Shown here piece by piece: positions 18,227 to 37,818 of a DNA stretch of 64,000 nucleotides (positions are counted from its first letter, which is position 1; every line of letters begins with the position of its first letter). The notes under the pieces were generated by a model, which searched no databases, had not been told where the DNA came from, and saw only the letters and a list, made by a program, of their open reading frames with translations. This stretch comes from Desulfosoma sp. (lineage in GTDB: Bacteria > Desulfobacterota > Syntrophobacteria > Syntrophobacterales > DSM-9756). The stretch covers positions 117,235 to 181,234 of the forward strand of contig JBBFKY010000003.1 of NCBI GenBank assembly GCA_037481875.1, written 5' to 3'. Both the position numbers and the translations under genes were made by a program.

Positions 18227-19351
18227 GTGAAAATCCTTCATTATTGCCAGCATGTTTTGGGCATCGGGCATTTTTTGCGAAGCATGGAAATAGCCTCAGC
18301 CTTTTTCGAGCATGAAGTGTTTTTCGTTGAGGGAGGCCAGCCACTTCCAGGTTTTGAAGCACCCCCGCATGTCCATCGTCTGGCTCTTCCCGCTCTGATG
18401 ATGGATCCCGAATTCCGACACTTGGAAACCCAAGAAGGCGATGTCCGTCACACTCAAGAAGAGAGAAAAAAAAGGCTGTTGGAAATCTACCAAACCGTTC
18501 GGCCTGACGTGGTGCTCATTGAACTTTTTCCTTTTGGACGCAAGCGGTTCCAGTTTGAACTGATTCCGCTTCTTGAAGCCAACCGCACAGCACCACATTC
18601 GGCTTTCGTGGTCTGCAGTCTGCGAGACATTTTGGTGGAAAAGGCTGATCCGGACGCTTATGAAGAAAATGTTGTCCGCCGGGTCAACCGGTATTTTCAT
18701 CTGATCTTGGTTCACGCTGATCCCACATGCGTCCGATTGGATGAGACCTTCAGCCGTGTTCACCTCATTGAGCCACCTATGGTGTATACGGGTTACGTAA
18801 CCCGCACGGGCCCGAATCCTCCACCGCCGCGTTTAAACCATCGAATTGTTTTGAGCACCGGTGGCGGAAGGGTCGGGATTGATCTTATTCAGGCGGTCTG
18901 TCATGCCTTTTCCTATATTTTCAGGGATGACCTTCGCCTCGAGATCTATGAAGGTCCATTTATGACCCCCGAGGACAAACATCATCTTCAGGCTCTGACC
19001 AGCAAGGATTTCCGCATTGCCTGGAAGCCTTTTACACCTCATTTTCTGAAGGAATTGTTTCAGGCCGGGCTTTCCATCAGCATGGCCGGCTATAACACCT
19101 GCATGGATGTTCTCTCTTCCGGGGTCAAAGCTCTCGTGTATCCTTTTCCACAAAATCGAGAACAAGCCCTTCGAGCCGAACGGTTGGCGTCTCGAGGAGC
19201 TCTCAGGGTCCTTCGGTCCTTGGATGCAAAGAATCTGGCCGTGGAGATTCAGGCCGCGCTGGATGCTCCGCCCCCCAACCCCTTGGTTCTCAAAACCGAC
19301 GGAGCGCAAGAATCCGTTCGAGCCATTGAAAAGCTCATCTTGAAGGCTTAA
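18227..19351 (+). CDS. MurG-like predicted glycosyltransferase (COG4671 type)
   Basis: A 374-residue GT-B fold protein. The N-terminus MKILHYCQHVLGIGHFLRSMEIA is the family start; the C-terminal half has VLSTGGGRVGIDLIQ and the nucleotide-sugar site AGLSISMAGYNTCMDVLSSG followed by VYPFPQNREQALRAERL. The start codon is GTG with GGAG about 10 bases upstream. The donor and acceptor are unknown. It heads a run of same-strand genes for envelope transport, so an envelope glycan or lipid role is plausible but inferred. Confidence 0.85.
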   Translation: MKILHYCQHVLGIGHFLRSMEIASAFFEHEVFFVEGGQPLPGFEAPPHVHRLALPALMMDPEFRHLETQEGDVRHTQEERKKRLLEIYQTVRPDVVLIELFPFGRKRFQFELIPLLEANRTAPHSAFVVCSLRDILVEKADPDAYEENVVRRVNRYFHLILVHADPTCVRLDETFSRVHLIEPPMVYTGYVTRTGPNPPPPRLNHRIVLSTGGGRVGIDLIQAVCHAFSYIFRDDLRLEIYEGPFMTPEDKHHLQALTSKDFRIAWKPFTPHFLKELFQAGLSISMAGYNTCMDVLSSGVKALVYPFPQNREQALRAERLASRGALRVLRSLDAKNLAVEIQAALDAPPPNPLVLKTDGAQESVRAIEKLILKA

Positions 19352-19410: not shown

Positions 19411-20067
19411 ATGGCGAAACGTATCGACAGACAGATCGTTCTTCCCTGGTCTCAGGTGCTTCGCATTTCCTTCAATGCTCTTCGAGCCCGTCTGTTTCGG
19501 TCCCTGATCACTACGTTCACTTTGGTTCTGGCCGTGGCTTTTCTTACTTACACCTTCGCCGTTTATGTCCTGCTGGAAGGGCTTTGGCCGGCAGCGAGTG
19601 CGGCTCTTCAAGACAAGATTCTTGCCGCCGGCTTTCTGCCCATCGATGGCCATTTCGGCAGCAATGCTAAAGACAGATGGCTCGTCGTGCTTTCCCTTTT
19701 GGTCTGCACCGTAGGAATCGTCAACGCTCAACTTATGGCCGTCACCGAACGTTTTCGTGAAATCGGTACCTTGAAGTGTCTGGGGGCCCTGGACAGTTTC
19801 GTGATCAAACTTTTCGTTCTCGAAGCGGCTTATCAGGGAATTCTAGGAGGCTGCCTGGGAAGTCTTTTGGGACTGATCACGGCTGTGATCACCCTCGCCG
19901 TACGCTTCGGCACGGTCGTCTTTGTCCATCTGCCGGTGGTTTCCCTGGCTACCCTTCTTTTAAAATCTTCAGCGCTTGCGGTGGCTCTCAGCCTGATCGG
20001 TGTCATGTACCCGGCGTGGGTGGCGGCGCGCATGGAACCGGCTATCGCCTTGAGATCGGAGCCTTAG
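19411..20067 (+). CDS. Small FtsX-domain ABC permease
   Basis: A 218-residue inner-membrane permease of the MacB/LolC/FtsX type, much shorter than usual (about 400) because the large periplasmic domain is nearly absent. There is one N-terminal helix after LRISFNALRARLFRSLITTFTL and then a FtsX core with three helices, including FREIGTLKCLGALDSFVIKLFVLEAAYQGILGG and the closing MYPAWVAARMEPAIALR. It is five bases upstream of the ATPase gene and should form a transporter with it, perhaps as a heterodimer with the giant permease that follows. Confidence 0.87.
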   Translation: MAKRIDRQIVLPWSQVLRISFNALRARLFRSLITTFTLVLAVAFLTYTFAVYVLLEGLWPAASAALQDKILAAGFLPIDGHFGSNAKDRWLVVLSLLVCTVGIVNAQLMAVTERFREIGTLKCLGALDSFVIKLFVLEAAYQGILGGCLGSLLGLITAVITLAVRFGTVVFVHLPVVSLATLLLKSSALAVALSLIGVMYPAWVAARMEPAIALRSEP

Positions 20068-20072
20068 TTTCT

Positions 20073-20807
20073 ATGAACGGGAACGGCACACACAATGTGG
20101 TTCGTTTGGTGGACGTGGTGAAGGTGTTTCGCATGGGTCAGGAAGAAGTCCATGCCCTTCGGGGCATTTCCCTGGAAATCAAAGCGGGAGAATACATGTC
20201 CATCATGGGGCCGTCGGGATCCGGCAAATCCACTTTGTTCAACATGATCGGCGCTTTGGATAAACCCACCTCCGGGCGCGTCTTTATCGACGAGGTGGAC
20301 GTGGCGCAGCTGGATGCCTATGAGCTGGCATGGCTTCGATGTCGCAAAATCGGCTACATTTTTCAAACCTTTAATCTCATTCAAGTGATGACGGCCATCG
20401 AGAATGTGACTTTACCCATGATCTTTGCCGGCATGGGCCGAGACGAATACATGGACAAAGGCATGGAACTGCTGAAACTGGTAGGTCTGGCCGAAAGGTA
20501 TCAGCACAAGCCCAGCGAACTTTCCGGAGGTCAGCAACAAAGGGTGGCCATCGCCAGAGCTCTTGCCAATGATCCAGCCATCATTTTGGCCGATGAACCC
20601 ACAGGAAACCTGGACCTCACTACCGGCGAAGAAATCATCGGACTGCTCAAGGAACTGTCCCAAGAACGAGGGGTGACCATTATTTCGGCAACCCATGACC
20701 TCAAGATGATCAATGTGTCTGATCGCGTCGTGTGGATTCGAGACGGTCGCATCGATCGCATCGAAGATCGCGAAAGACTTCAGATTTCCATAGGCCAGGT
20801 TTTGTGA
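20073..20807 (+). CDS. ABC transporter ATPase, MacB/LolD type
   Basis: A 244-residue ATPase energising the adjacent FtsX-type permeases. It shows Walker A GPSGSGKST, Q-loop YIFQTFNL, signature LSGGQQQR, Walker B IILADEPTGNLD and the H-loop ISATHD. This subgroup drives mechanotransmission machines that move lipoproteins, drugs or peptidoglycan-linked signals across the envelope. The ATG at 20073 is chosen; longer in-frame readings lie within the upstream permease. The final TGA overlaps an ATG at 20807. Confidence 0.93.
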   Translation: MNGNGTHNVVRLVDVVKVFRMGQEEVHALRGISLEIKAGEYMSIMGPSGSGKSTLFNMIGALDKPTSGRVFIDEVDVAQLDAYELAWLRCRKIGYIFQTFNLIQVMTAIENVTLPMIFAGMGRDEYMDKGMELLKLVGLAERYQHKPSELSGGQQQRVAIARALANDPAIILADEPTGNLDLTTGEEIIGLLKELSQERGVTIISATHDLKMINVSDRVVWIRDGRIDRIEDRERLQISIGQVL

Positions 20808-21097: not shown

Positions 21098-24000
21098 ATG
21101 TCTGCAGGGATTCAATCGTTTGCGAAAATGCTCCCCGGCGAAACATTCTGGGTAAGTCTTCTTGTGATCTTATGTCTTTTCGGCGCCCTACGGAGCCAAG
21201 CCCATGCATCGGCTTCCCAGGCCATGGGGCCACATCTCCAAGCGCTGATCCAAGCCGAAGATCGATCCACCGGCACACCTGGCTGTGACGCCGCCGCCGA
21301 CTATATTGCCCAGACCTTTCAGCGGTTGGGACTGAAAAACGTGGGACGTCAGGGTTTCTTTGTCCCTGTGCCCGTCTTGGATGAGGGGCACATCACGGTG
21401 GGTTCGGCACGTTTTCCGCTTTATCCTTGGGCTCCCAATATGGCCATGATGTCTCAAACCCCTCCCGAGGGACTGGAAGGACCGTTGGTGGACGTCCACG
21501 ACGGGGCTTTAACTCGGTTCAACGGGCTTAACATCGAAAACGCTCTTGTTTTGATGGATGTTGCTTCCGGCGACAACTGGTGGCTGGCGGCTCAGCTGGG
21601 AGCCAAGGCCGTAATCTTTCTTGGGCACGATGAGGATACACGTGACCAGTTTGTGAGAAAAAACATTCCGACACCCTTGGATTTTCCACGTTTTTACGCT
21701 CCTTCAAAAGTGGGGGCGGCGTTACGTCAAGCCGCCGCGCAAGGTGCTCGGGCACGAGTGTCGGTTCGCAGCCATTGGGAAAACCGTATGGTTTTCAATG
21801 TTTACGGCGTGGTTCCTGGATCTTCACCTCAGCTTTCCAAAGAATTGGTCATCATCGAAGCATCCTACGATGCCGCATCCTCTGTGGTGGGTTTGGCCCC
21901 TGGAGCGGATCAAGCGGTTTCGGCGGCCATGTTGCTGCAATTGGCCGAATTCTTGGCATCGCATCCACCGGAACGCACCGTCCTTCTTGCAGCCGTCTCC
22001 GGCCACGGTCAAGGGCTTCTGGGCACGCGCCATTTTGTCTGGACATTGGAAGGCCCTCGTAGAAATCTTCGCACTGAACAAAAATTCCTCGAAAATAAAA
22101 GAGAACGCCTCAAACACCTTCACACGCTTCTCACACGCCCCGAGCCTTTCAAGGCGGAAACCGATCAGCCGCTTTCTCAAGACCAGATCTGGTCCTATGT
22201 GGTGGGATGGGCCAAGGATGAAGCGGATCTTTTGACGCAAGAAGCTCGCGGGAAGCAGGAACTCATGGCCCTGGCGCTCAAGTTTCGTCGTTTAAGCTGG
22301 AAAGAGGCGAATGATCCGCTCAGAGAGGAAGAGCGCTTCCTGGCCATGAAACTGATTGAACGGGGTCTCGAGAATCTCAAAAGTGAGCTGGCTGAGATAG
22401 ATGCACGATTAAAGGCCGTGAAGTCCTGGATCGCGCTTCGTAACGTGGTGGAGGAATACGATCGAGTGCTTCATTTGGGACTGTCCCTGTCTTCCCGATC
22501 ACCGCTTGTGACCCTCAGTGAATGGGGTGGCACCTTCCCTTTACGCGAGCAGGTCTATCGTATGGTTCGCAACGTGGCCCTGGCCGAGATCTTTAGGCAC
22601 GCCGCGGAAGAACTGGCTCAGGAAATCAAGGATTCACCCGTTTTTGCGGAAACCAGCCGACATGGGGGTACCGCGGGTGCCCATGCCGTGGAAAGCCTAA
22701 GACCCATGTGCTTGGCATGCGATATTGGAGCCCTTTCCGCATGTCCTTCATTTGCCCTCATCAGCGCTAACAATCACCGCACTTATTGGGAAACCCCCAA
22801 TGATAGCCCGGAACGGCTGGACATCCATGGTGTGGAACGACTGGGAAAAGTTATTCCTAAGCTTCTGGCCCGAGTCCTTGCCGATCCCAAGCTCAGGGAA
22901 AGGTGTCGAGCCGGTTTTGAAGGGCTGGCATCTGTGGAAGGGCGGGCCATGTTTATTCGGCAAGGGGAACTGTTTCCGGATAAGCCGGCTCCAGGAACCC
23001 TGGTCTGTGTCCTGCAAGGGAATTCACTTGTGCGGGTCATGACCTTTCAAGACGGGTCTTTCTTCATTCCGGCGGTGGCCAACAAACGTGTGGCTTTTCA
23101 AAAACTCATTCTCGAGCCCTACGGGGTCGACCCACAGACCGGCAAAATTCGATGGGCGGCCGACAAGGTGCAAACATCCAAGGACAACTACCGGCTCAAC
23201 ATTAAAGGACGCATCGCCACCACTACCCTCGTCATGTTCCAATGCCGACAAAGTGACATCGTCGGTGTTATGAACCCTCAACGCATGGATTACTTGACAA
23301 AAATCACCCTTTTGGACGGAGTCACTGAAGCTCGGCCGCTTCGTTATTGGTACAGCCGTGTGGATGGTCGGGACACCTTTGCCGTTTCCGTTTTTTTAGA
23401 ACCGGGCAGCCGTTTCAAACTCATTCTTTCCGACACACTTTTGCGCAAGGAACTTTTACTGCTGAACGGCACGGCAGCCAACCCAACAGGATCTGGGTAC
23501 ATCATCGGAGAACCTGCACTCCTTACCAAAACCTTCGGCCGTGTGGCCGACGATCTTATCCATCTGGTCGGGGAACGCCTGGAAAATCTTACCAGGCATG
23601 GAATCAGCAACCGCTTCTTGGAAAACCTGTACGAAGAAGCCGTACAGGAGCGCCAACGAGCCCTTCAGGATGAAACCTTCCTGCAGCACAGCCGATCTTG
23701 GGAAGGTACGGTCTCGGCCTGGGCCAAATTGAACACGGTTTACAACGAAATCGAAAACACGCAAAGAGATGTTCTTGGGGGCGTTATGTTCTTCATCGCC
23801 CTTTTTGTCCCCTTTGCGTACTGCCTGGAACGTTACCTTTTCTGCTTCCGGAATATCTACAAGCAGCTTACAGCCTTCTTTGTGCTCCTTATCGCCACCA
23901 TTTTGACCATTCGCGCCCTGCATCCGGCCTTTCGCCTGACCTATAATCCCATGGTGGTGATTCTTGCCTTTTTCATCGTGGCCTTAAGCGTCACCGTCGC

Positions 24001-25900
24001 CTGGATTCTCTTCGTTCGCTTTGAACGGGAAATGGCCGCTTCTTCAGCCTTGCCCGGAACCGCCTCGGCGAAAGACAGTGTCAACAAGTGGCAGGCCTTT
24101 GGAGCGGGTTTCGCCATCGGCGCCTCCAACCTTAACCGCAGACGTCTGCGCACCGCTCTCACCTCTGTCACCCTTATCATCCTCACCTTTACCATTATGT
24201 CTTTCACGAACGTGAAAAGCCTTACCAAAACCACCATGACTCGAGTCGGTGAGGCCCCTGCTTACTCAGGTGTGCTCGTGCGACATCCTCTTTGGCTTCC
24301 CCTGACGTCGATCTCTCTGGAAAGCCTTATAGCCCGCTATGAAAATCGTGCTGTCCTGTGGCCCCGTTCTTGGATCGATCCGGCGCATCCATCTTTGCGA
24401 GCCGTGGCTTCTGTGCGTGCCGCCTCGATAAGCGTTCCGGTGGAAGGCGTGCTCGGTGTAGGAGCCAACGCTCCGGAATCTTTCAAGGACATCGTGAGCT
24501 CAGGCAGATGGTTTCAGAAAGACGACGTGCGGGCCGTGTTACTTTCCACACATCTTGCCCATAAGTTAGGTCTCGATCCATTCCGCGATCTAGGAACTTC
24601 CGTGCACCTTTGGGAAGTGCCTTTCGTCGTTGTAGGCTTCTTTGATTCGAACCGACTGGAAGCCTTTATGGATTTGGATGGATCCCCGGTAAAACCCGCC
24701 TACATGGATATCGCTCCTGACCAGGAACTTTCTGAAGCGGAAATTGAAGCGATGGAAGGGGGGGAAACCGTTACGCCGATGATCGAAAAATTTCGTTCGG
24801 CATCCAGCGAAGCGACGGTTTTGATTCCTCACAGCACGTGTCTGTCGCTTGGAGGAACACTACGGGCGGTGACCCTTCTCACCCCTGGACCTTCAAAGGC
24901 TTTGGAATTGGCTGACGATCTTACGCGTCGTCTCACTTTTCCTTTGTTCGTGGGAGCTGATGTCACCTACTTTCATTCCGCATCAAAAACCTTGCGATAT
25001 CAAGGAGTCGCCAACCTTCTCGTGCCCATGCTTATTGTTGTTTTCATTTGTCTGAACACCATGATAGGCCATGTGCATGAAAGGAAATCGGAAATCGGTG
25101 TCTACACTTCCGTGGGACTAGCACCCAACCATGTGGGTTTTCTCTTTATCGTCGAAGCCCTTTCTCTGGCCGTGCTCTCCACAGTCATCGGCTACATTCT
25201 GGCGCAGCTCACAGCATTCTTTCTCGGCAAAACAAGCCTTTTTGCCGAACTCACGTTCAATTATTCCTCTTTGGCCAGCGTGGCCTGCATGGTTTTGGTG
25301 TTTTCCGTGGTTCTTCTGGCGTCCCTGTATCCGGCACGTCTGGCGGCCGCTTTGGCCATGCCCGATGTAACCCGCACATGGACGGTCCCTCCGGCTCAGG
25401 GGGATCTTCTCGAACTCCGCCTGCCCTTTCTGCTCAAGCCGGAAGAAGAAGCGGGAATCATGGCGTTCTTGACCCGATTCATTCGAGACCATCAGGATGT
25501 GGCTCAAGGTCCCTTCATCGTGGACGATGTGAGCCTCACACCGGTGGCTTCCAGCACCGATGGGGCACAGCTTCCCGAACCCGTTTGTCTGTGGTTGTAC
25601 GCCAATGTGTGGCTGGCTCCCTTTGACTTCGGTGTCAAACAGCGATTGCGTCTGCACTGTTGTCCGTCTTCGGATGATCCCGGGTATATGGAGGTCGCCC
25701 TGCACATGATACGGCTTTCCGGAGAACGCACCACATGGCAGAGGGCCAACCGCAATTTTATCAAGGTCATGAGAAAACAGATGCTTCTGTGGCGGCTTCT
25801 CGATGCGGAAACCAAGGCCTCCTACGGTCTTCCCATAAAACCTCTCGATGCGGAAGGACTTCAAGACCAGCCGCAAGCCGCTTTTTCAAGCCAAGGATAG
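21098..25900 (+). CDS. Giant FtsX-type ABC permease with degenerate M28-peptidase-like domain
   Basis: About 1600 residues from the ATG at 21098, followed by a signal-peptide/anchor (SLLVILCLFGALRSQAHA). The frame is open back past 20807, where an ATG overlaps the ATPase stop, but residues there look non-coding. Residues about 40-320 resemble an M28 aminopeptidase (DAAADYIAQTFQRLGLKNV; SAAMLLQLAEFLASHPPERTVLLAAVSG), yet AHYDS reads ASYDA and the EEQGLLGS motif reads GHGQGLLGT, so metal ligands are lost. Three helices lie near 891-990, then NLNRRRLRTALTSVTL, a second periplasmic part, a FtsX core (about 1308-1424) and a cytoplasmic tail. Probable periplasmic binding or scaffold permease. Confidence 0.8.
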   Translation: MSAGIQSFAKMLPGETFWVSLLVILCLFGALRSQAHASASQAMGPHLQALIQAEDRSTGTPGCDAAADYIAQTFQRLGLKNVGRQGFFVPVPVLDEGHITVGSARFPLYPWAPNMAMMSQTPPEGLEGPLVDVHDGALTRFNGLNIENALVLMDVASGDNWWLAAQLGAKAVIFLGHDEDTRDQFVRKNIPTPLDFPRFYAPSKVGAALRQAAAQGARARVSVRSHWENRMVFNVYGVVPGSSPQLSKELVIIEASYDAASSVVGLAPGADQAVSAAMLLQLAEFLASHPPERTVLLAAVSGHGQGLLGTRHFVWTLEGPRRNLRTEQKFLENKRERLKHLHTLLTRPEPFKAETDQPLSQDQIWSYVVGWAKDEADLLTQEARGKQELMALALKFRRLSWKEANDPLREEERFLAMKLIERGLENLKSELAEIDARLKAVKSWIALRNVVEEYDRVLHLGLSLSSRSPLVTLSEWGGTFPLREQVYRMVRNVALAEIFRHAAEELAQEIKDSPVFAETSRHGGTAGAHAVESLRPMCLACDIGALSACPSFALISANNHRTYWETPNDSPERLDIHGVERLGKVIPKLLARVLADPKLRERCRAGFEGLASVEGRAMFIRQGELFPDKPAPGTLVCVLQGNSLVRVMTFQDGSFFIPAVANKRVAFQKLILEPYGVDPQTGKIRWAADKVQTSKDNYRLNIKGRIATTTLVMFQCRQSDIVGVMNPQRMDYLTKITLLDGVTEARPLRYWYSRVDGRDTFAVSVFLEPGSRFKLILSDTLLRKELLLLNGTAANPTGSGYIIGEPALLTKTFGRVADDLIHLVGERLENLTRHGISNRFLENLYEEAVQERQRALQDETFLQHSRSWEGTVSAWAKLNTVYNEIENTQRDVLGGVMFFIALFVPFAYCLERYLFCFRNIYKQLTAFFVLLIATILTIRALHPAFRLTYNPMVVILAFFIVALSVTVAWILFVRFEREMAASSALPGTASAKDSVNKWQAFGAGFAIGASNLNRRRLRTALTSVTLIILTFTIMSFTNVKSLTKTTMTRVGEAPAYSGVLVRHPLWLPLTSISLESLIARYENRAVLWPRSWIDPAHPSLRAVASVRAASISVPVEGVLGVGANAPESFKDIVSSGRWFQKDDVRAVLLSTHLAHKLGLDPFRDLGTSVHLWEVPFVVVGFFDSNRLEAFMDLDGSPVKPAYMDIAPDQELSEAEIEAMEGGETVTPMIEKFRSASSEATVLIPHSTCLSLGGTLRAVTLLTPGPSKALELADDLTRRLTFPLFVGADVTYFHSASKTLRYQGVANLLVPMLIVVFICLNTMIGHVHERKSEIGVYTSVGLAPNHVGFLFIVEALSLAVLSTVIGYILAQLTAFFLGKTSLFAELTFNYSSLASVACMVLVFSVVLLASLYPARLAAALAMPDVTRTWTVPPAQGDLLELRLPFLLKPEEEAGIMAFLTRFIRDHQDVAQGPFIVDDVSLTPVASSTDGAQLPEPVCLWLYANVWLAPFDFGVKQRLRLHCCPSSDDPGYMEVALHMIRLSGERTTWQRANRNFIKVMRKQMLLWRLLDAETKASYGLPIKPLDAEGLQDQPQAAFSSQG

Positions 25901-27915: not shown

Positions 27916-29880
27916 ATGATCGAGGACAAAGAACTCAAGGAATATCGGGATCTCCTCTCACCACCGGAACAGTTTCGAGACGGGTTCGGATGGAAATCGG
28001 TGATCGGGGCTATCTTTATTGGATTTCTCATGATGCCCGGCTCCATGTATCTGGGCCTGGTGATCGGCACAGGCATCGGTCCTGCGGCTCGCTGGGTGAC
28101 CGTCATCCTTTTTGCGGAAGTGGCCAAAAGGGCTTACACGCGTCTGAACCAGCAGGAAATTTTCGTGTTGTATTACATGGCCGGAGCCGCCATGGCCTCG
28201 CCCTTTTCCGGGCTTTTGTGGAATCAATACCTGGTGCAGTCGGAAGCCGCTCGCATGTTGGGTCTCACCCAGTACATTCCTTCCTGGGTGGCGCCTCAGC
28301 CCGGCTCCGAATCCCTCATCGAAAGAACCTTTTTCCATAGAGATTGGCTGGTTCCCATTCTTCTCATGGTGGGCTTTGAACTGATTCAGGCCGTAGACCA
28401 TTTCGGATTGGGTTACGCCCTGTATCGTTTAACCTCCGATGTGGAAAAACTTCCTTTTCCCATGGCTCCCGTAGGAGCTTTGGGCAACATGGCTCTGGCC
28501 GAATCCACGGAAAAAAAAGAAACAGGATGGAAATGGCGCCTGTTTTCCATCGGGGCCATGATAGGTTTGTGTTTCGGAGCCATTTATGTGCTTTTGCCTG
28601 CCGCTTCCGGCGTGATCCTCACGGAACCGGTGCGTCTTCTTCCCATTCCCTGGATTGAACTGACCCCTGTGACCGAAGAAATTCTTCCCGCCGTGGCCAC
28701 CGGCATTCAGTTGGACCTGGGGCTTCTGTTCATCGGCATGGTGTTGCCGTTCTGGGCGGTGGTGGGAGGTGCTGTGGGATTTCTTATCACTCTGGTGGCC
28801 AATCCCATTCTTTATCAGCACGGTATCCTGCAAAGGTGGCACAAGGGAATGGGGACGGTGGATACGGTTTTTGCCAATAATTTCGATTTTTACATGAGTT
28901 TCGGTATCGGTATCGGGCTGGCCATTGCTTTGGTGGGCTTTGTGCAGGTTTTTCGAGGGCTGCGCTCGGAAAGCATGGCACCTTTTCGAGAACGCATGAA
29001 AAGACTTTTTGAACCGCCCAAGGGCCGAGGGGATTTCAGTATCTGGATTGCCATCGCCATCTATGTGGGCAGCACTTTAGTTTACGTGATTTTGTGTTCC
29101 TTTCTGGTTCCAGGCTTTCCATGGATCTTTTTGGTGGCTTACGGCTTCATTTACACACCTTTTATCAGTTATGTTTCGGCGCGAATGGAAGGGATTACCG
29201 GACAGTTCGTGAGTCTTCCCATGGTGCGGGAAGCGAGTTTTATCGCAGCCTCCAAGTTTTTCGGCTATCATGGTATCGGGATCTGGTATGCGCCGATTCC
29301 TTTTCACAATTACGGCAAAGCTACGGTTCGATGGCGCGAAATCGAACTTACGGGAACCAGTTTTCGAAGCATCATTAAAGCGGAAATTCTCGTGTTTCCG
29401 GTAGTCATGATCGCCAGCTTGCTGTTTTCCCAATACATCTGGCGCTTGGCTCCCATTCCTTCCAGTCAGTACCCATATGCTCAGGAACTCTGGCATCTGC
29501 AGGCGCTCAATACCTTGTTGCTGCAAAGTGCCACCCTGGAGGGGTATTCACCTTTTTTTGAAGCCCTTAAGGGCCAATATGTCTTGTGGGGACTGAGCCT
29601 CGGTGTGATTGTCTACTGGGCTCTCAACCTTCTTCACTGGCCGGTCCTTCTTATTTATGGTGTGGTTCGAGGTCTTGGACAATCGACACCTCATGGTATC
29701 TTTCTGGAAATCATTGGGGCCCTGCTGGGGCGTTTTTATTTTTCGAAGAAATATGGGCTGGCCTGGCGTCAGTATGCCCCGGTGTTGCTGGCAGGCTTTT
29801 CTTGTGGCATGGGCCTCATGGGCATGCTCGCCATGGGCTTCACCCTCATCATGCGCTCCCTGGGAAGCCTGGCCTACTGA
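27916..29880 (+). CDS. Polytopic membrane protein, OPT-like, second of pair
   Basis: A 654-residue membrane protein with a short cytoplasmic N-terminus (MIEDKELKEYRDLLSPPEQF) and at least 12 helices. Its C-terminal half has PIPSSQYPYAQELWHLQALNT, reminiscent of OPT-family peptide or metal-siderophore transporters. The ATG at 27916 has GGGAG at good spacing; a longer frame from 27832 overlaps the upstream gene. It shares the segment KLPFPMAPVGA with the family and MNFPLLRVP in its neighbour, suggesting related proteins that may form a heteromer. Substrate unknown. Confidence 0.75.
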   Translation: MIEDKELKEYRDLLSPPEQFRDGFGWKSVIGAIFIGFLMMPGSMYLGLVIGTGIGPAARWVTVILFAEVAKRAYTRLNQQEIFVLYYMAGAAMASPFSGLLWNQYLVQSEAARMLGLTQYIPSWVAPQPGSESLIERTFFHRDWLVPILLMVGFELIQAVDHFGLGYALYRLTSDVEKLPFPMAPVGALGNMALAESTEKKETGWKWRLFSIGAMIGLCFGAIYVLLPAASGVILTEPVRLLPIPWIELTPVTEEILPAVATGIQLDLGLLFIGMVLPFWAVVGGAVGFLITLVANPILYQHGILQRWHKGMGTVDTVFANNFDFYMSFGIGIGLAIALVGFVQVFRGLRSESMAPFRERMKRLFEPPKGRGDFSIWIAIAIYVGSTLVYVILCSFLVPGFPWIFLVAYGFIYTPFISYVSARMEGITGQFVSLPMVREASFIAASKFFGYHGIGIWYAPIPFHNYGKATVRWREIELTGTSFRSIIKAEILVFPVVMIASLLFSQYIWRLAPIPSSQYPYAQELWHLQALNTLLLQSATLEGYSPFFEALKGQYVLWGLSLGVIVYWALNLLHWPVLLIYGVVRGLGQSTPHGIFLEIIGALLGRFYFSKKYGLAWRQYAPVLLAGFSCGMGLMGMLAMGFTLIMRSLGSLAY

Positions 29881-30212: not shown

Positions 30213-31355
30213 ATGCACATTAGGAAGTTTTCCATACCGGAAATCATCTTCGGGCGTGGCGCCTTGAAATACGCGGGTTTGTGTGCCAAACGCCTTGGTG
30301 CGGAAAAGCCCATGGTAGTCAGTGATCCGGGTCTGCGAGAAGCGGGATGGGTGTCGCAATTGTTGGATGTGCTCGCCGCAGAAGGAATGGACTGGTGCTA
30401 CTTCGAAGACGTTGTCAGTAACCCTCGGGACACTCAGGTGGCCCATGGAGCCCTTTTTTATGCACAACATCAGGCGGATGTGATCATAGCGCTGGGCGGA
30501 GGCAGCCCCATGGATGCGGCCAAAGGGATCGCCGTGGTGGTGGGAAACGGCGGAAGCATACACGATTATGAAGGGGCCAATCGCATCCATCGTCCTTTGC
30601 CCCCCATGGTTTTTCTTCCTTCAACCGCGGGAAGCGGCTCGGACATTTCCCAGTTCGCCATCATCACGGACACACGCCGTCGGCTCAAAATGACCATTGT
30701 CAGTCGAACCCTTGTTCCCAACATTTCCATCATCGATCCCATGGTGCTGACCACCAAACCACGGCATCTCGTTTTGGCGGCCGCCGTGGATGCGCTGGCT
30801 CACGCTATTGAATCGTACGTCTCCATCATCGCTTCTCCTTTTACGGAACTCCAATCCTTAAAAGCTATCGAAATGATCAGCACCCATTTGCCCTTAGCCG
30901 CGCAGGAACCTTCACTGGAAGTTCTGGAAGCCTTAAGTATCGCCAGTACCGCAGCAGCAATGGCGTTCAGTAATGCCAGCTTGGGAGCGGACCACGCCTT
31001 GGCGCATTCTCTTGGAGGCATGTTAGATGTGCTGCACGGAGAGGTGCACTCCGTCCTTTTACCGGCTGTCATGCGCTACAATCTGGAGGCGGCTCTGCCT
31101 AAGATGGCTCAAATTGGAAACATTTTGACCGGAAAACACTTTCGCAACAGCCGCAAAGCAGCTCAAGCGGGCATTGAAAGTCTGGAAAATCTCTTTGCGT
31201 CTTTGGGCATGAAACATAGGCTTCGCGACTTGGTTTCGGACCCTTCCCATCTGCCACAACTGTGCCGCATGGCGGCCCAGGATGCCTGTTTGCTGACAAA
31301 TCCGAAACCGGCCACGTGGATGGATCTGCTGAAAATTTGCGAAGAGGTTTGGTGA
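30213..31355 (+). CDS. Iron-containing (group III) alcohol dehydrogenase
   Basis: A 380-residue NAD(P)-dependent alcohol dehydrogenase. The nucleotide site is GGGSPMDAAKGIAVV, and the metal ligands are visible: Asp and His in DALAHAIE, and two His in HALAHSLGGMLDVLHGE. The ATG follows CCAGGAG. The next gene, a histidine kinase, starts on its stop codon (TGATG). It is a paralog of the enzyme at 34.2 kb but clearly divergent (for example STAGSGSDISQFAII against TTAGTASEMTRFCII). Natural substrates may be short alcohols or aldehydes. Confidence 0.92.
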   Translation: MHIRKFSIPEIIFGRGALKYAGLCAKRLGAEKPMVVSDPGLREAGWVSQLLDVLAAEGMDWCYFEDVVSNPRDTQVAHGALFYAQHQADVIIALGGGSPMDAAKGIAVVVGNGGSIHDYEGANRIHRPLPPMVFLPSTAGSGSDISQFAIITDTRRRLKMTIVSRTLVPNISIIDPMVLTTKPRHLVLAAAVDALAHAIESYVSIIASPFTELQSLKAIEMISTHLPLAAQEPSLEVLEALSIASTAAAMAFSNASLGADHALAHSLGGMLDVLHGEVHSVLLPAVMRYNLEAALPKMAQIGNILTGKHFRNSRKAAQAGIESLENLFASLGMKHRLRDLVSDPSHLPQLCRMAAQDACLLTNPKPATWMDLLKICEEVW

Positions 31356-32548
31356 TGAAAGCTCCCCCATCTTTAGAAGACTTGATCGGCATTGAATATT
31401 CCAAGCTAGGTTTTTTCCGTGAAGCCCAGGAAAAGATCGCTCAATTGCACGCCTCCACACTGGAACTGGAACGTCGGCGTCAGCAGATTCAAGCCATTTT
31501 GGATGGAATTACGGACGTCATGGCGGTTATCACGCCCGAAGGACGTATCACCTCTGTTAATCGCGTTTTTTATGATGTCTTTGGTGGCAGTTCTCCGGTT
31601 GGAAAGAAATGCTATAGTGTTTTTCGAGGCTCCGATAAGAAGTGCCAGCCATGTCCGGCAAGCATCGCCTACGAGACCAACCGCGTGTGCCGACAGGAAC
31701 ACATCGTGACCGTGAACAATTCCACGCGTCACTTTGAAATTACGGCTTCCCCTTTGAGGAATCCCCAAGGGCTTCCATGCCATGTTTTGTTACTGAAACG
31801 TGATGTGACGTTAGAGCGCGAATACCAGGCAAAACTGAACCACGCCGAAAAAATGAGCGCCGTGGGTTTGCTCGCCGCCGGCGTAGCCCACGAAATCAAC
31901 AATCCCCTCACGGCCATTCTGGGATTTGTGCAAGCCATACGTAAACGCCTTCCTGAAGTGAGGGATCGGCTGCCTCAAGAATTTCGAGCTATTTTAGAAG
32001 AATATACGGAAATCATCATGGATGAATGTGCACGTTGTCAGGAAATTGTACAGGGTCTTTTGAGCTTCAGTCGACCCTACTCGGGCACAATGACCGTCGT
32101 AGACTTAAACAAATGCGTTCAGGAAACCATCAAGCTTGTGCGTCATCGATTCCAAGAATTTCCCGAGCTTCAGTTTGAGCTAGAGTTGGAGACGAAACCA
32201 CTCCGTATTCAGGGCGCTCCATCTCAGATCAAGCAACTCTTACTCAATCTTCTTCTCAACGCTTTGGACGCCCTGCCCGACGGAAAAGGATCTGTGCGTG
32301 TGCGCACCTTTGTGCGGGATGGGCACGGAGCGTGCCTTGAAGTTCAAGACACCGGCCGCGGTATTCAAAGGGAAAGCCTGGGAAAAATTTTCACTCCTTT
32401 TTTCACCACCAAACCAGTAGGCCGTGGCACCGGTTTGGGGCTTTCCATGTGCTACTCCATCGCGCAAGCTCACAATGCTGCCATTGAAGTGGAAAGCGAA
32501 CCCCACAAGGGATCCACCTTTCGAGTCGTGTTCGAGAAAATGCCATGA
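31355..32548 (+). CDS. PAS-domain sensor histidine kinase
   Basis: A 397-residue cytoplasmic kinase without membrane helices. It has an N-terminal helix, a PAS domain (about 45-150) carrying a cysteine cluster Cys86, Cys97, Cys100 (KKCQPCPA), phospho-acceptor His180 (AAGVAHEINNPLTAIL), and an HATPase domain with NLLLNALDALPDG, DTGRGI and GRGTGLGLS. The cysteines could form a redox or metal sensor, which is an inference. It overlaps the alcohol dehydrogenase before and the response regulator after it (ATGA), so the three are one operon. Confidence 0.92.
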   Translation: MKAPPSLEDLIGIEYSKLGFFREAQEKIAQLHASTLELERRRQQIQAILDGITDVMAVITPEGRITSVNRVFYDVFGGSSPVGKKCYSVFRGSDKKCQPCPASIAYETNRVCRQEHIVTVNNSTRHFEITASPLRNPQGLPCHVLLLKRDVTLEREYQAKLNHAEKMSAVGLLAAGVAHEINNPLTAILGFVQAIRKRLPEVRDRLPQEFRAILEEYTEIIMDECARCQEIVQGLLSFSRPYSGTMTVVDLNKCVQETIKLVRHRFQEFPELQFELELETKPLRIQGAPSQIKQLLLNLLLNALDALPDGKGSVRVRTFVRDGHGACLEVQDTGRGIQRESLGKIFTPFFTTKPVGRGTGLGLSMCYSIAQAHNAAIEVESEPHKGSTFRVVFEKMP

Positions 32549-33894
32549 AACCCATGCGTGTCCTCGTCATTGACGACGAAGTGTCCATTCGAAAACTCGT
32601 GGAAAAAGAACTGGCGGCTCCTCATCGAAAGATCGTTACGGCGGATTGTGTGGCTGCAGCCAAGAAACGGATCTCCGAGGAATCCTTTGACGTTATCGTC
32701 GCGGATATTCGACTCCCTGACGGTGACGGGTTGGAGCTCCTAGGTTTTTTTCGGCAAGTCTTGCCCGATGTGGAGGTGGTTTTCATAACGGGGTACGGTA
32801 CTGTGGAAGGCGCCCTCAAAGCCATGAAACTGGGCGCTTATGACTATGTCACCAAGCCTTTTGACTTAGAACGGTTGGAAGTAGTCCTGGACAAAGCCTT
32901 TGAGCGGGTTTGCCTCAAAAGAGAAAACCGTCGACTTCTTCAAGGACTGAGGGGTGTGGACGCTCCACGCCTTGTCGGTCGTTCATCGGCCGTACGTCAC
33001 ATCACAAGGCTGATCCAAAAAGTGAGCCAACATGATACTTCGGTGCTTATTACCGGAGAATCGGGGACCGGCAAAGAGGTGGTAGCGCGAAACATCCATG
33101 CTCTAAGCCCCCGTGCGCAGCGCCCTTTCGTGGTTAAGAATTGTGCTGAACTGCAAAAGGATCTTCTGCGCAGTGAACTTTTTGGTTACGTCAAAGGAGC
33201 CTTTACGGGGGCCTTGGAGACACGGGAGGGCCTTGTCAGCCTGGCCGATGGAGGCACTCTGTTTCTTGATGAAATCGGAGAAATGCCCATGGAACTGCAA
33301 GGCGCCTTGCTACGCCTCCTGGAAACCAAAAGGTTTCGAAGGGTTGGAGATCAACAGGAACGCTATGTGGATGTCCGATTCCTTTTTGCCACTCATCGGG
33401 ATCTGAAAAAAGAAGTTGACGCTGGTCGTTTTCATGAGGCCCTCTACCACAGGCTGAACATTTTTCGTATTCACTTACCTCCTTTGAGGGAAAGGATCGA
33501 AGATATTCCCTTACTGGTAGAACATTTTTTGGGGATTCTCAGTCGGCCCGGCACTACCTACAAGGTGCCGGATGAAACTTTGGCCTATCTCATGGCCTAC
33601 GCCTGGCCGGGCAATGTACGGGAACTTCGAAACGTCCTGGAAAGATGTCTGATTCTCAGCGAAGATAAAATCATTCTGCCTGACACCCTTCCACGGGAGC
33701 TTGTCCAAAGAGTACCATCAGCCGGAACCACCGACTTCCCATGTCTGCCCCTCCACGAAGTGGAACGCCTTCATATCCAAAACACCTTGGCACGGTTTTG
33801 CGGCAACAAAGTCGAAACCGCTCGAGCTCTAGGGATCAGCCGCCGAACCCTCTACAGAAAAATCAAAGCTTATGGCCTGGATGATGTGTCTTGA
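32545..33894 (+). CDS. NtrC-family sigma-54 response regulator
   Basis: A 449-residue transcription activator: receiver domain with Asp54 (IVADIRLPDG), AAA+ domain with Walker A GESGTGKE and the sigma-54 contact motif GAFTGA, and a C-terminal Fis-type helix-turn-helix (KVETARALGISRRTLYRKI). It is coupled to the upstream kinase by an ATGA overlap and should be its partner. A candidate sigma-54 promoter lies 270 bases downstream, before the second alcohol dehydrogenase, making that gene a likely target. Confidence 0.94.
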   Translation: MKPMRVLVIDDEVSIRKLVEKELAAPHRKIVTADCVAAAKKRISEESFDVIVADIRLPDGDGLELLGFFRQVLPDVEVVFITGYGTVEGALKAMKLGAYDYVTKPFDLERLEVVLDKAFERVCLKRENRRLLQGLRGVDAPRLVGRSSAVRHITRLIQKVSQHDTSVLITGESGTGKEVVARNIHALSPRAQRPFVVKNCAELQKDLLRSELFGYVKGAFTGALETREGLVSLADGGTLFLDEIGEMPMELQGALLRLLETKRFRRVGDQQERYVDVRFLFATHRDLKKEVDAGRFHEALYHRLNIFRIHLPPLRERIEDIPLLVEHFLGILSRPGTTYKVPDETLAYLMAYAWPGNVRELRNVLERCLILSEDKIILPDTLPRELVQRVPSAGTTDFPCLPLHEVERLHIQNTLARFCGNKVETARALGISRRTLYRKIKAYGLDDVS

Positions 33895-33917
33895 TATCTG
33901 GCGATAGGCTCATTCCC

Positions 33918-33934
33918 TGTGACATCATGACACA
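33918..33934. promoter_or_regulatory. Imperfect palindrome, candidate activator site
   Basis: TGTGACATCATGACACA is a 17-base near-palindrome, with two mismatched arm pairs around a central C. It lies in the 353-base spacer between the sigma-54 regulator gene and the second alcohol dehydrogenase gene, about 230 bases before the candidate sigma-54 promoter, a distance typical for enhancer sites of NtrC-type activators. Binding is inferred. The rest of the spacer holds no gene that I can support. Confidence 0.4.
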
Positions 33935-34164
33935 TTCGGAAGAACGCCGTGGACAAAACAGCACACGACGCTCAGAGTGTGTGAAAAGCCCCTCGGAAAC
34001 CGTCCTGAAAAATCAACTCATTAATTTTCAAGTCAAAAAAGAAAGCTCAAGATTCAGATCGCCTCGCCCGTGATCCTTTTGAACGATGCCAATCTTGCAC
34101 GGCTTCGAGACCGAATCCTGGCTCTCCTATTATAACATGTTGTTTTATCTTTGTTTTAGTCGAT

Positions 34165-34180
34165 GGCATTAGTCTTGAAG
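34165..34180 (+). promoter_or_regulatory. Candidate sigma-54 promoter (-24/-12)
   Basis: TGGCATTAGTCTTGAA matches the sigma-54 consensus TGGCAY-N5-TTGCW at correct spacing, with one deviation in the -12 element (TTGA for TTGC). It is 67 bases upstream of the alcohol dehydrogenase ATG at 34248 and close to a gene for a sigma-54 activator. The region around it is AT-rich, as expected for a promoter. Confidence 0.5.
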
Positions 34181-34247
34181 TGAGTGTGAGAATGCAGCTT
34201 CAAGGGGAAGTTGCGTACGAAAACTTCTTAAACAAAGGAGGCGTATC

Positions 34248-35414
34248 ATGGCGGTCAGAGAGCAAGTTTACGGTTTTTACATTCCCACGGTGACCTTGAT
34301 GGGCATTGGTGCTCACAAAGAAATCGGCAAACAGATTCAAGTACTTGGTGGTAAGAAGCCTTTTCTATGCACCGATAAGGGCATTGTTTCGGCCGGTATT
34401 GCGGATCAAATCATTGAGTTGATCAAGAAAGACACCGGACTGGATGTGGTTGTTTTCGATGAAACGGTGCCGAATCCCACAGACAAGAACGTGCATGACG
34501 GCCTGAAACTCTTTAAGGATAAAGGCTGTGACCTTATTATCTCCCTTGGCGGGGGAAGTGCCCATGACTGCGCCAAAGGCATTGGTATTCTGGCTACCAA
34601 CGGGGGTAACATTCGCGACTACGAGGGCATCGACAAATCCAGCAAAGCCATGCCGCCTTTTATTGCAATCAACACCACGGCGGGAACCGCTAGTGAAATG
34701 ACTCGCTTTTGCATTATCACTAACACCGACACCAAGGTCAAAATGGCCATCGTGGACTGGAGGGTTACACCCAATGTGGCCATCAATGATCCTCTTCTCA
34801 TGATGGGCATGCCTCCGGCGCTGACGGCCGCCACCGGTATGGACGCACTGACCCATGCCGTGGAAGCCTATGTGTCCACTATTGCCACGCCTGTGACCGA
34901 TGCCTGCGCTCTTAAGGCCATAGAATTGATTTCTCAGAATTTGCGAGCTGCCGTCGCCAACGGCGCCGATATGGAAGCACGGGACAAAATGGCTTACGCT
35001 GAATACCTTGCCGGTATGGCTTTCAACAATGCGAGCCTCGGTCATGTGCATGCCATGGCTCATCAGCTCGGCGGGTTCTACGACTTGCCCCATGGGGTCT
35101 GCAACGCGATTCTTTTACCTCACGTGGAACGGTTCAACATGATTGCGAAAATGGACCGTTTTGCCGATATCGCCGTGGCCATGGGTGAAAACATCAGTGG
35201 ATTGTCCGTACGATGCGCCGCAGAAAAAGCTTTGGATGCGATCGTTACTCTGTCTCGGGATGTGGGCATTCCTCGAGGACTGGCCGAATTGGGAGTCAAG
35301 GAAGAAGACATTCCCATCATGGCTCAAAACGCCCAAAAGGATGCCTGCGGCCTGACGAACCCTCGATGCCCGACCTTGAACGATGTGATTGAAATCTACA
35401 AAAACGCTCTGTAA
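34248..35414 (+). CDS. Iron-containing alcohol dehydrogenase
   Basis: A 388-residue type III alcohol dehydrogenase, close to the well-studied enzymes of sulfate reducers. It shows GGGSAHDCAKGIG for NAD binding and metal ligands in DALTHAVEAYV, HVHAMAHQLGGFYD and LPHGVCN. The ATG has AAAGGAGG at ideal spacing. Good ribosome site and own promoter suggest high expression. With the AOR downstream it would form an alcohol to aldehyde to acid oxidation pathway, or the reverse. Confidence 0.95.
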   Translation: MAVREQVYGFYIPTVTLMGIGAHKEIGKQIQVLGGKKPFLCTDKGIVSAGIADQIIELIKKDTGLDVVVFDETVPNPTDKNVHDGLKLFKDKGCDLIISLGGGSAHDCAKGIGILATNGGNIRDYEGIDKSSKAMPPFIAINTTAGTASEMTRFCIITNTDTKVKMAIVDWRVTPNVAINDPLLMMGMPPALTAATGMDALTHAVEAYVSTIATPVTDACALKAIELISQNLRAAVANGADMEARDKMAYAEYLAGMAFNNASLGHVHAMAHQLGGFYDLPHGVCNAILLPHVERFNMIAKMDRFADIAVAMGENISGLSVRCAAEKALDAIVTLSRDVGIPRGLAELGVKEEDIPIMAQNAQKDACGLTNPRCPTLNDVIEIYKNAL

Positions 35415-35489
35415 TAAAAAGCAACTCTGTCAGCTGAAGTTGTTTTCAGAGTGAGTCACTGGCCCTCTGCACCCCACTAGAGCATCTTT

Positions 35490-35534
35490 CCGCTGCATCT
35501 TCGAAACCCGGTCAATCTCTCGAAGATGCAGCGG
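35490..35534. repeat. Perfect 15-base inverted repeat (strong hairpin)
   Basis: CCGCTGCATCTTCGA (35490-35504) and its exact complement TCGAAGATGCAGCGG (35520-35534) are separated by 15 bases. Outer bases GAGCA and TGCTC can extend the stem past a bulge. There is no T-tract, so it is not a standard intrinsic terminator. It lies 75 bases after the alcohol dehydrogenase stop and may be a processing signal, mRNA stabiliser or protein-binding site. Confidence 0.7.
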
Positions 35535-35689
35535 TGCTCACTGACTTGAAGCTTCAGCGCACTCCTTGACTTCGTTCAGAAAATGTGATTTGTATGCGAA
35601 ATAAAGGGATTGGGCGAATCTTGGATCTGCGCTGTTCGAGAGAACTATGGTTTCGGCATTGACAGAAAGCCTCTTTGGGAGGACATTTC

Positions 35690-35992
35690 ATGCCGCAGCA
35701 TCCAAATCAAAATCGACCGTCCCTTATCCTTTATAGTCTACTTACATGTCCCCGTTGCCGACGCGTAAAAGAATTTTTGGAGCAACATGCGGTTCCCTTT
35801 AAGCTTTATCTCGTGGATCTTCTTATTGGTGAAGAACGGTCCAAGGTTTTGGCTGAGATTAAGTCCAGAAATCCTGCCGTCACTTTCCCCACTCTTGTGG
35901 TGAAGGATGTTGAGGATCGTGTCGTTGTGGGGGACCGGCTCAAGGATATTGAACAGGTTTTGCGCGATTTAAAATGGATTCAGGATAAGTAA
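35690..35992 (+). CDS. Glutaredoxin-like protein
   Basis: A 100-residue thioredoxin-fold protein with active site CPRC (SLLTCPRCRRVKEFL), a cis-proline segment (VTFPTLVV) and a VVVGDRLKDIEQVL C-terminus. GGGAGGA precedes the ATG at 35690 by seven bases, preferred over an ATG-less longer reading at 35675. It is related to the protein at 51,081-51,335. A role in electron or disulfide transfer for the adjacent AOR/ADH enzymes is possible but unproven. Confidence 0.88.
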   Translation: MPQHPNQNRPSLILYSLLTCPRCRRVKEFLEQHAVPFKLYLVDLLIGEERSKVLAEIKSRNPAVTFPTLVVKDVEDRVVVGDRLKDIEQVLRDLKWIQDK

Positions 35993-36081
35993 AGCTGATG
36001 TGAAAGGTTCGTGGAGGGTTTTGCAGGTTTGAATCCCGGAAAGAGGCCAAGAATCCAAAAAAGAAATGAGGAGACGCAGCC

Positions 36082-37818
36082 ATGGATAAAATTCTTCGTG
36101 TTGACATGGGAGCTCCCGAAGGGCCCAAAGTTAGTGTGGAACCACTGGGAGAGTATGCGGGTTTGGGTGGTCGAGCCTTGACATCGGCCATTGTATCTAA
36201 GGAAGTGCCGCCCACGTGCCATCCCTTGAGCGCTGAAAACAAGTTGGTGATTGCTCCGGGGCTTTTGAGCGGCACCACAGGTGCCATGACGGGACGGATC
36301 TCCGTGGGATGTAAGAGTCCTCTTACGGGAACCATTAAGGAGGCTAACGCCGGAGGTCAACCAGCTCAGGTGCTGGCACGTTTGGGATACGCAGCCATTG
36401 TCTTGGAAGGCAAACCCAAGGACGACACCCTTTACAAGATCGTGATCAATCCGGATGGAGTCAAGATTCTTCCCGCCAATGAACTGAAGGGGCTCGGCAA
36501 TTACAAGACTGTGGAAAAGGCCAAGGAAGAGTACGGGGACAAGATCGCCTGTATTTCCATCGGCCAGGCCGGTGAAATGAAGTTGGCCGCCGCTTCTGTG
36601 GCCTGCACTGATCCGGAACTTCGCCCGACACGCCATGCGGGCCGTGGTGGTGTAGGAGCCGTCATGGGAGCCAAGGGCGTAAAACTCATCGTCTTGGATG
36701 ATACAGGCATGAAGATGCGCTCCCCAAAGGATCCCGAGAAATTCAAAGATGCCAACAAGCGCTTTGTGGAAGGTTTACGGCGTCATCCGGTCACGGGCCA
36801 AGGGCTTCCGGCCTATGGAACCAACGTTCTGACGAACGTGATCAACGAGGCCGGAGCTTACCCCACATATAATTTTAAGGAAGGGCGTTTTGCCGGAGCC
36901 GCCAAGATCAGTGGAGAGACCCAGGCGGAAACGGAAAAGGCTCGAGGCGGCAATCCCACTCATGGTTGTCATCGAGGCTGTGTCATTCGGTGTTCGGGTA
37001 TCTACGTGGATAAGGACGGAAACTACATCACCAAGCAACCTGAATACGAAACCGTGTGGGCTCACGGCGGCAACTGCGGCATTGACGACTTGGACGCCAT
37101 TGCCCAATTGGACTTCTTGGACGACGATACGGGTTTGGACACCATTGAAATGGGTGCCACCATCGCAGTGGCTATGGAAGCGGGACTGGCCAAGTTCGGA
37201 GACGCTCAAGCCGCCATCGAATTGGTCAAAGAAGTGGCCAAAGGCACACCTCTCGGCCGTATTCTCGGAAGCGGGGCTGCCGTTACGGGAAAGGTCTTCG
37301 GCGTGGAGCGCGTCCCGGTTGTCAAGGGTCAGGCCATGCCCGCCTATGACCCCCGAGCTGTCAAGGGCATCGGCGTGACCTACGCCACCAGCACCATGGG
37401 GGCGGATCATACGGCAGGCTATGCCGTGGCCACCAATATTCTCAAGGTGGGCGGCAATGTGGATCCTCTTTCTCCACAGGGCCAGGTGGAACTGTCCCGC
37501 AATCTTCAGATCGCCACAGCGGCTCTCGACTCCACGGGCATGTGCTTGTTTGTCGCCTTTGCTCTTCTGGACCAGCCCGATACTTTTCAAGCTCTGGTGG
37601 ACATGATCAACGCGTTCTACGGACTTAACATGACCGCGGATGACGTCACCGCTTTAGGTAAGAAAGTGCTTCAAATGGAACGGGACTTCAACCTGAGGGC
37701 AGGCTTCACGTCCAAGGACGATCGCTTGCCGGATTATTTCAAGAAAGAAGCTCTACCGCCGCACAATGTCACTTTTGATGTTCCCGACGAGGAACTGGAC
37801 AAAGTCTTTAACTGGTAA
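36082..37818 (+). CDS. Aldehyde:ferredoxin oxidoreductase (tungsten family)
   Basis: A 578-residue AOR-family enzyme oxidising aldehydes to acids with ferredoxin, using a tungsten-bispterin cofactor and one [4Fe-4S] cluster. Cluster cysteines are Cys296, Cys300, Cys304 (HGCHRGCVIRCSG) and Cys488 (STGMCLF). The CxxxCxxxC spacing differs from the CxxCxxxC of archaeal AOR but is seen in some bacterial relatives. The N-terminal YAGLGGRALTSAIV and PGLLSGTTGAMTGR segments are typical. GAGGAG precedes the ATG, and an intrinsic terminator follows. Confidence 0.93.
   Translation: MDKILRVDMGAPEGPKVSVEPLGEYAGLGGRALTSAIVSKEVPPTCHPLSAENKLVIAPGLLSGTTGAMTGRISVGCKSPLTGTIKEANAGGQPAQVLARLGYAAIVLEGKPKDDTLYKIVINPDGVKILPANELKGLGNYKTVEKAKEEYGDKIACISIGQAGEMKLAAASVACTDPELRPTRHAGRGGVGAVMGAKGVKLIVLDDTGMKMRSPKDPEKFKDANKRFVEGLRRHPVTGQGLPAYGTNVLTNVINEAGAYPTYNFKEGRFAGAAKISGETQAETEKARGGNPTHGCHRGCVIRCSGIYVDKDGNYITKQPEYETVWAHGGNCGIDDLDAIAQLDFLDDDTGLDTIEMGATIAVAMEAGLAKFGDAQAAIELVKEVAKGTPLGRILGSGAAVTGKVFGVERVPVVKGQAMPAYDPRAVKGIGVTYATSTMGADHTAGYAVATNILKVGGNVDPLSPQGQVELSRNLQIATAALDSTGMCLFVAFALLDQPDTFQALVDMINAFYGLNMTADDVTALGKKVLQMERDFNLRAGFTSKDDRLPDYFKKEALPPHNVTFDVPDEELDKVFNW

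Follow-up and report, generated by a model that had tools for sequence, protein, structure and literature searches.

A putative pseudo-aminopeptidase domain fused to an FtsX-class ABC permease in a conserved gene unit of Desulfobacterota

Does a peptidase-like domain that is joined to an ABC permease still cut, and if not, what could it do there? The question is raised by a locus in a stretch of 64,000 nucleotides from Desulfosoma sp. (contig JBBFKY010000003.1, positions 117,235 to 181,234), here called the window. A first-pass annotation, made from the sequence alone, had described a degenerate M28 peptidase-like domain fused to an ABC permease at 21841-22060. This region was found to lie inside a single long open frame (21098-25900), which encodes a protein of 1600 aa. 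The start was taken as the ATG at 21098, and an alternative ATG at 21128 is possible. The features of the locus are collected in Table 1.

Table 1. Features of the pseudo-aminopeptidase/permease locus, in window coordinates
Feature	Position	Strand	Basis
Glycosyltransferase family 28-like protein	18227..19351	+	Pfam Glyco_tran_28_C 2.9e-7; frequent, not constant upstream neighbour
Small FtsX-type permease, 218 aa, almost without periplasmic domain	19411..20067	+	Pfam FtsX 4.4e-15; hydropathy; conserved neighbour
ABC ATPase, LolD/MacB/FtsE class (start ATG 20073 chosen)	20073..20807	+	Pfam ABC_tran 1.2e-34; NCBIfam; motifs
1600-aa PA/M28 pseudo-aminopeptidase-FtsX-type permease fusion (putative)	21098..25900	+	ORF; Pfam M28 5.4e-9, FtsX 4.1e-11; homologues
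Hydrophobic N-terminal segment	residues 11-29 of the 1600-aa protein		Hydropathy
M28 fold, N-terminal two thirds, with PA-like insertion (PA ~21476-21697)	21245..22057	+	Pfam; hhalign 98.3%; model vs 2ek8, 6hc6, 1amp
S256, at zinc ligand His97 position (AAP numbering)	21863..21865	+	His in 0/85 homologues
D271, equivalent of bridging Asp117	21908..21910	+	Retained in 83/85 homologues
H303-G304, at catalytic Glu151 and zinc ligand Glu152	22004..22009	+	Glu-Glu in 0/85 homologues
Helical insert interrupting the M28 fold (residues ~321-454, ~130 aa; 42-residue helix)	22058..22459	+	Model secondary structure; alignment with intact M28
M28 fold, C-terminal third (residues ~455-600)	22460..22906	+	Sequence alignments, homologues
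S463 (or P469), at Asp179 position	within 22460..22906	+	Alignment
E565, at His256 position	22790-22792	+	YWETPNDS vs YHTPxDT of active enzymes
Beta-rich region and two terminal helices (residues 605-880)	22910..23737	+	Without Pfam family; model
Three hydrophobic TM segments (residues 892-971)	23771..24010	+	Hydropathy; model helices
Permease core (residues ~1019-1410): TM1, MacB_PCD-like periplasmic part (below cut-off), FtsX C-terminal TM2-4	24125..25357	+	Pfam; hydropathy
C-terminal tail, 180 aa, predicted cytosolic	25358..25897	+	Sequence and topology, inference
DUF6785/DUF6784 membrane protein, 660 aa	25904..27886	+	Pfam 2.6e-142; model pLDDT 82
654-aa polytopic membrane protein	27916..29880	+	No Pfam/NCBIfam family; co-occurrence

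The M28 fold of the 1600-aa protein was evaluated by profiles and by structure prediction. The claim that the region keeps the M28 fold pattern was borne out by Pfam Peptidase_M28 (36.5 bits, with a cut-off of 21.3). This match spanned profile positions 1-77 only, because the strand and helix bearing the Glu-Glu equivalent are followed by the helical insert. hhalign against the intact M28 domain of a relative gave the probability listed in Table 1, and removal of the insert gave 98.5-99.3% across the whole M28 fold. A profile of 20 relatives retrieved 2ek8 from the PDB sequences at 1.1e-16, together with 6hc6, the transferrin receptor and nicastrin. When residues 40-960 were modelled with AlphaFold2 (pLDDT 83, pTM 0.83), the model matched M28 aminopeptidases in Foldseek (2ek8 at 1.5e-19), and VIA-align superposed it on 6hc6 (Z 26.1) and 1amp (Z 25.0, 2.6 A over 254 residues). 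A search of the viral structure library with the M28 model found nothing at E 0.001 or below. With significant fold matches from Pfam, hhalign and the model, the 1600-aa protein belongs to peptidase family M28 by fold and homology.

The metal site was then compared with that of the Aeromonas aminopeptidase (AAP), in which Zn1 is bound by Asp117, Glu152 and His256, and Zn2 by His97, Asp117 and Asp179 (PMC7522609). Equivalences were taken from alignments, not from superposed atoms. ASYDA (residues 255-259) and GHGQGLLGT (residues 302-310), which had been read in place of AHYDS and EEQGLLGS, were both in frame. The accompanying claim that the metal ligands are replaced was right for four of the five classic ligands and wrong for the bridging Asp, which is retained as D271; structural Asp residues of the M28 fold were kept along with it in the homologues. 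The catalytic Glu, which precedes the ligand Glu, is H303 in the 1600-aa protein, and none of the 85 homologues has Glu there. The equivalent of Asp179 is uncertain (S463 by strand extension, P469 by hhalign); Asp occupies the position in 2 homologues among about 85, and neither Ser nor Pro usually binds zinc. No His was found at the His256 position in the 85 homologues. E565, which stands there, is replaced by Asp or Gly in close relatives and is not conserved even within the genus; rescue of the site by E565 is therefore unlikely.

Thus, the set of five ligands (His, Asp, Glu, Asp, His) and the catalytic Glu of active M28 enzymes is not present in the 1600-aa protein. No alternative full ligand set was found in the window protein, and none was conserved family-wide in the homologue alignments. 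As an in-phylum control, the stand-alone M28 protein of a relative retained all ligands. Other M28 matches in Desulfobacterota were shorter frames with M28/PA coverage only; of two such proteins examined, one was an M1-M28 fusion and one was a stand-alone M28 with all ligands. A relative's M1-type/M28-type peptidase fusion with a PDZ-like C-terminal end (L162:5622-8966) had its M28 metal ligands intact. Among the Desulfobacterota genomes sampled, no permease fusion of the present kind with intact M28 ligands was found. The strong fold match and the missing ligand set agree with the first-pass annotation that the domain is a pseudo-peptidase, and the M28 domain of the 1600-aa protein is very probably a pseudo-enzyme.

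Another possibility considered was that a rebuilt site keeps the domain enzymatically active. Across Desulfobacterales, the residues D271, H303, H463, H467 and E542 hardly vary and might bind one metal, the subclade of the window having drifted. Outside this subclade, H303 was found in 52/64 and H463 in 63/66 proteins, and the title of PDB entry 2anp describes an E151H mutant of the Aeromonas enzyme as functional. However, the window protein has Ser, Arg and Asp at positions 463, 467 and 542, and the pocket is more variable in its own subclade than in Desulfobacterales. Given also that the four classic ligands are gone in nearly all members and that E565 varies within the genus, an active rebuilt site is highly improbable.

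Motifs that deviate from the M28 consensus could also come from a decaying gene or a sequencing artefact. This was ruled out, since the same changes were present in about 85 homologues, nearly all with open frames throughout, and dN/dS was about 0.1 (0.10-0.14 for the M28 fold between species of the genus). The large gene was split over two frames in some metagenome assemblies (L064, L127), by assembly error or recent frameshift. The nearest relatives of the window were Desulfosoma and Desulfacinum records, and relatives across Desulfobacterota include Desulfacinum, Desulforhabdus, Desulfoferrobacter, Desulfospira and Solidesulfovibrio. The homologue alignments show an M28-fold domain under purifying selection, whose predicted metal site has been lost across the whole family. 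The former active-site loops scored 3.20 bits of conservation versus 2.25 for the rest of the M28 fold, and 0 of 10,000 random draws were as high; the loop boundaries were hand-chosen around the ligand motifs, which double as structural motifs. As far as sequence can indicate, the conservation of these loops favours a binding surface.

We were also interested in the permease to which the domain is joined. The reported fusion to an ABC permease was confirmed by the FtsX match within the 1600-aa protein, for which 8 TM segments were predicted by hydropathy. MacB_PCD matched at 1.3e-4, with 22.8 bits against a cut-off of 27. The first-pass annotation had placed the domain on the periplasmic face of a MacB-type permease. 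The N-terminal hydrophobic segment and the topology uphold the periplasmic face and the FtsX/MacB class, and identity with MacB itself was rejected: the ATPase is encoded separately and PRK10535 gave 18.2 bits versus 966 for the large permease. LolCDE was rejected as well (lolCE 15.1 and 50.5 bits vs 362; LolD 227 vs 308, NCBIfam), and so was a YbbAP/ADOP permease (ADOP model 26.2 bits vs 622; 8 rather than 10 TM). The ATPase has intact motifs (Walker A GPSGSGKS, signature LSGGQ and H-loop), and its best NCBIfam matches were MacB, LolD and FtsE. An FtsX-type C-terminal domain in both permeases and an ATPase of the MacB/LolD/FtsE class are as expected of a type VII ABC transporter. These results show that the 1600-aa protein supplies one of the two unequal halves of an FtsX-class ABC permease.

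In type VII ABC systems, ATP drives movements on the periplasmic side, and the periplasmic partner typically sets the function (PMC12646458). The dead M28 domain could be a scaffold or mechanical lever, modelled on FtsEX acting via EnvC: its insert and surface would recruit or activate an envelope protein upon ATP hydrolysis, and the cleft would hold no small ligand. The long helices inserted in the M28 domain of the model fit such a role, as do the membrane-adjoining beta-rich region (residues 605-880), which is more conserved than the M28 fold, and the frequent regulation of periplasmic enzymes by FtsX-type permeases (PMC12646458). On the other hand, conservation within the M28 fold is highest in the former active-site loops, and no hydrolase gene was a constant neighbour among the loci compared. 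A scaffold without a ligand is therefore somewhat unlikely.

The partners of the 1600-aa protein were examined next. The gene order small FtsX permease, ATPase, 1600-aa protein, DUF6785 protein and 654-aa protein recurred in the majority of some 80 public loci, Desulfobacterota-wide, and the plasmid collection gave no match. Among 118 evenly sampled Desulfobacterota genomes, the same 8 encoded all three large proteins and the other 110 encoded none of them; 4 of the 8 positives came from one order, so that not every event counts as independent. Where the DUF6785 and 654-aa genes did not adjoin the 1600-aa gene, the 654-aa protein was encoded elsewhere in the genome (6/6 genomes), and in five such distant regions examined the DUF6785 gene lay beside the 654-aa gene. 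These regions offered no common functional clue beyond a secreted protein of ~200 aa in some. The pairwise distances of the three large proteins correlate (r 0.93-0.97), as expected under vertical co-inheritance.

The model of the DUF6785 protein (pLDDT 82, pTM 0.86) superposed on barley YS1 (7wsr, OPT family) with Z 22.1 (554 residues, 4.0 A), and the next fold had Z 5.4. No PF03169 match was found in this protein, and the hhalign probability for the OPT profile was 0.2%. Because there is no sequence-profile link to OPT, we name it OPT-fold, after the OPT-type transporter fold of its model, and not OPT family. For the 654-aa protein, hhalign against OPT gave a probability of 2.4% (E 0.02, C-terminal), and homology between it and the DUF6785 protein was not detected by profile. 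That it forms the second half of an "OPT-fold pair" is our assumption. For an uncharacterised membrane protein, the 654-aa protein shows unusual conservation, with 69-95% identity to relatives across Desulfobacterota orders and a mean column identity of 84%. A predicted secreted protein of ~200 aa without Pfam family is often encoded 3′ of the 654-aa gene in Desulfobacterales (L076:15762-16409, L178:5527-6273, L180:5808-6416), apparently also where the DUF6785/654-aa pair is distant from the ABC genes. In the window, the unit is followed at 30213-37818 by two iron-dependent alcohol dehydrogenase-like genes, a histidine kinase/response regulator pair and an aldehyde:ferredoxin oxidoreductase-like gene; in genome G012 (L182), similar genes adjoin the DUF6785/654-aa pair.

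Upstream of the unit, glycosyltransferases, a histidine phosphatase and a deacetylase-like protein are encoded in many genomes but are not constant, and pairs of GT4 genes and methyltransferase genes lie nearby as well. These neighbours would suit a complex that, on the outer side of the inner membrane, extracts or presents a molecule linked to lipid or glycan, with the M28-like domain as periplasmic acceptor and a substrate made by the glycosyltransferases, such as the GT28-like protein encoded upstream at many loci. LolCDE or YbbAP-TesA would be the precedent (PMC12646458). However, the sugar genes are missing beside the unit in several lineages, whereas the OPT-fold pair is constant, and an OPT fold speaks for a ligand that is small and soluble. 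A lipid or glycan role is thus unlikely.

The reading that we prefer, at a probability of roughly 0.4 as a whole, is a pseudo-aminopeptidase receptor in a type VII ABC complex that works with the OPT-fold pair. Two ATPases, the small permease and the 1600-aa protein would form a type VII (mechanotransmission) ABC complex, with the pseudo-aminopeptidase domain as its built-in periplasmic partner. The former active-site cleft may retain ligand binding without cutting. The ligand would most likely be a short peptide, a peptide-like compound or a metal chelate. ATP-driven movement of the permease could open and close the cleft and the helical insert, and the ligand may be exchanged, in either direction, with the OPT-fold pair that shares the membrane. 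Fold, ligand loss, fusion and co-occurrence rest on observation, whereas the ligand, the complex and the transport direction are what we infer here. The receptor for peptides or peptidoglycan fragments suggested by the first-pass annotation is plausible. A peptide-like or chelate ligand was considered more likely because the former active-site surface is conserved and the obligate partner has the fold of a peptide/chelate transporter; nothing in the evidence indicates peptidoglycan as the specific ligand. Several observations count against the receptor reading as a whole. Many genomes have sugar-transferase, phosphatase and deacetylase-like genes nearby, which points to a glycan or lipid role; the resemblance to OPT is one of fold alone; and the pocket varies more in the subclade of the window than in Desulfobacterales. 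The scaffold and the lipid or glycan readings are thus rivals to be taken seriously. Moreover, both metals are lost, and therefore the means by which an aminopeptidase holds the amino end of a peptide is gone. The more specific picture of a five-protein envelope machine of sulfate reducers, with the ABC-driven pseudo-aminopeptidase as a ligand-holding gate for an OPT-type pair, is a doubtful proposal. We know of no described type VII system in which ATP-driven motion is coupled to a secondary-transporter fold.

What the locus encodes is probably a conserved and previously undescribed inner-membrane machine of sulfate reducers, whose M28-type domain holds or binds rather than cuts. Neither DUF6785 nor the M28-FtsX fusion was mentioned in the literature searched, which covered few subscription papers, and novelty is thus not proven. 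The analysis brings to light a conserved unit with strict co-occurrence and recasts a bacterial M28 fold as a putative non-catalytic module of an ABC complex, with a parallel in the transferrin receptor and nicastrin of animals. With the candidate OPT-fold partner there is also a starting point for testing the role of DUF6785 and of a strongly conserved membrane protein without family.

Among known systems, the PA-domain M28 aminopeptidases (Aneurinibacillus AM-1 2ek8, Bacillus BSAP 6hc6 and Aeromonas AAP 1amp) share with the 1600-aa protein the PA and M28 folds, the order of secondary structure, the bridging Asp and the TP-x-D motif. The 1600-aa protein differs from them by the replaced catalytic Glu and four zinc ligands, by the 130-aa helical insert and by the fusion to an ABC permease. 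The transferrin receptor and nicastrin are M28-fold receptors without catalysis. Like the 1600-aa protein they carry an M28-related ectodomain on the non-cytosolic face (profile matches 3.7e-7 and 4.5e-4), but they are eukaryotic, lack an ABC permease and have different extra domains; the M28 domain of the 1600-aa protein likely has an origin independent of theirs. The barley OPT transporter YS1 (7wsr) resembles the DUF6785 protein by model superposition, whereas the latter has no detectable profile relation to OPT and is encoded by an ABC-adjacent gene. MacB, LolCDE and FtsEX have the ATPase class and the FtsX C-terminal permease domain in common with the window unit, and the NCBIfam scores of the window proteins are all below the cut-offs for these systems. 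No MacA, TolC, LolA or EnvC-like gene was recognised in the conserved unit. YbbAP-TesA is a type VII ABC system with a periplasmic hydrolase partner (PMC12646458), and it likewise combines an FtsX-class permease, a separate ATPase and a hydrolase-fold periplasmic partner. In the window unit, by contrast, this partner is fused in one chain and predicted to be catalytically dead, 8 rather than 10 TM segments are predicted, and a small second permease and putative OPT-fold companions are present.
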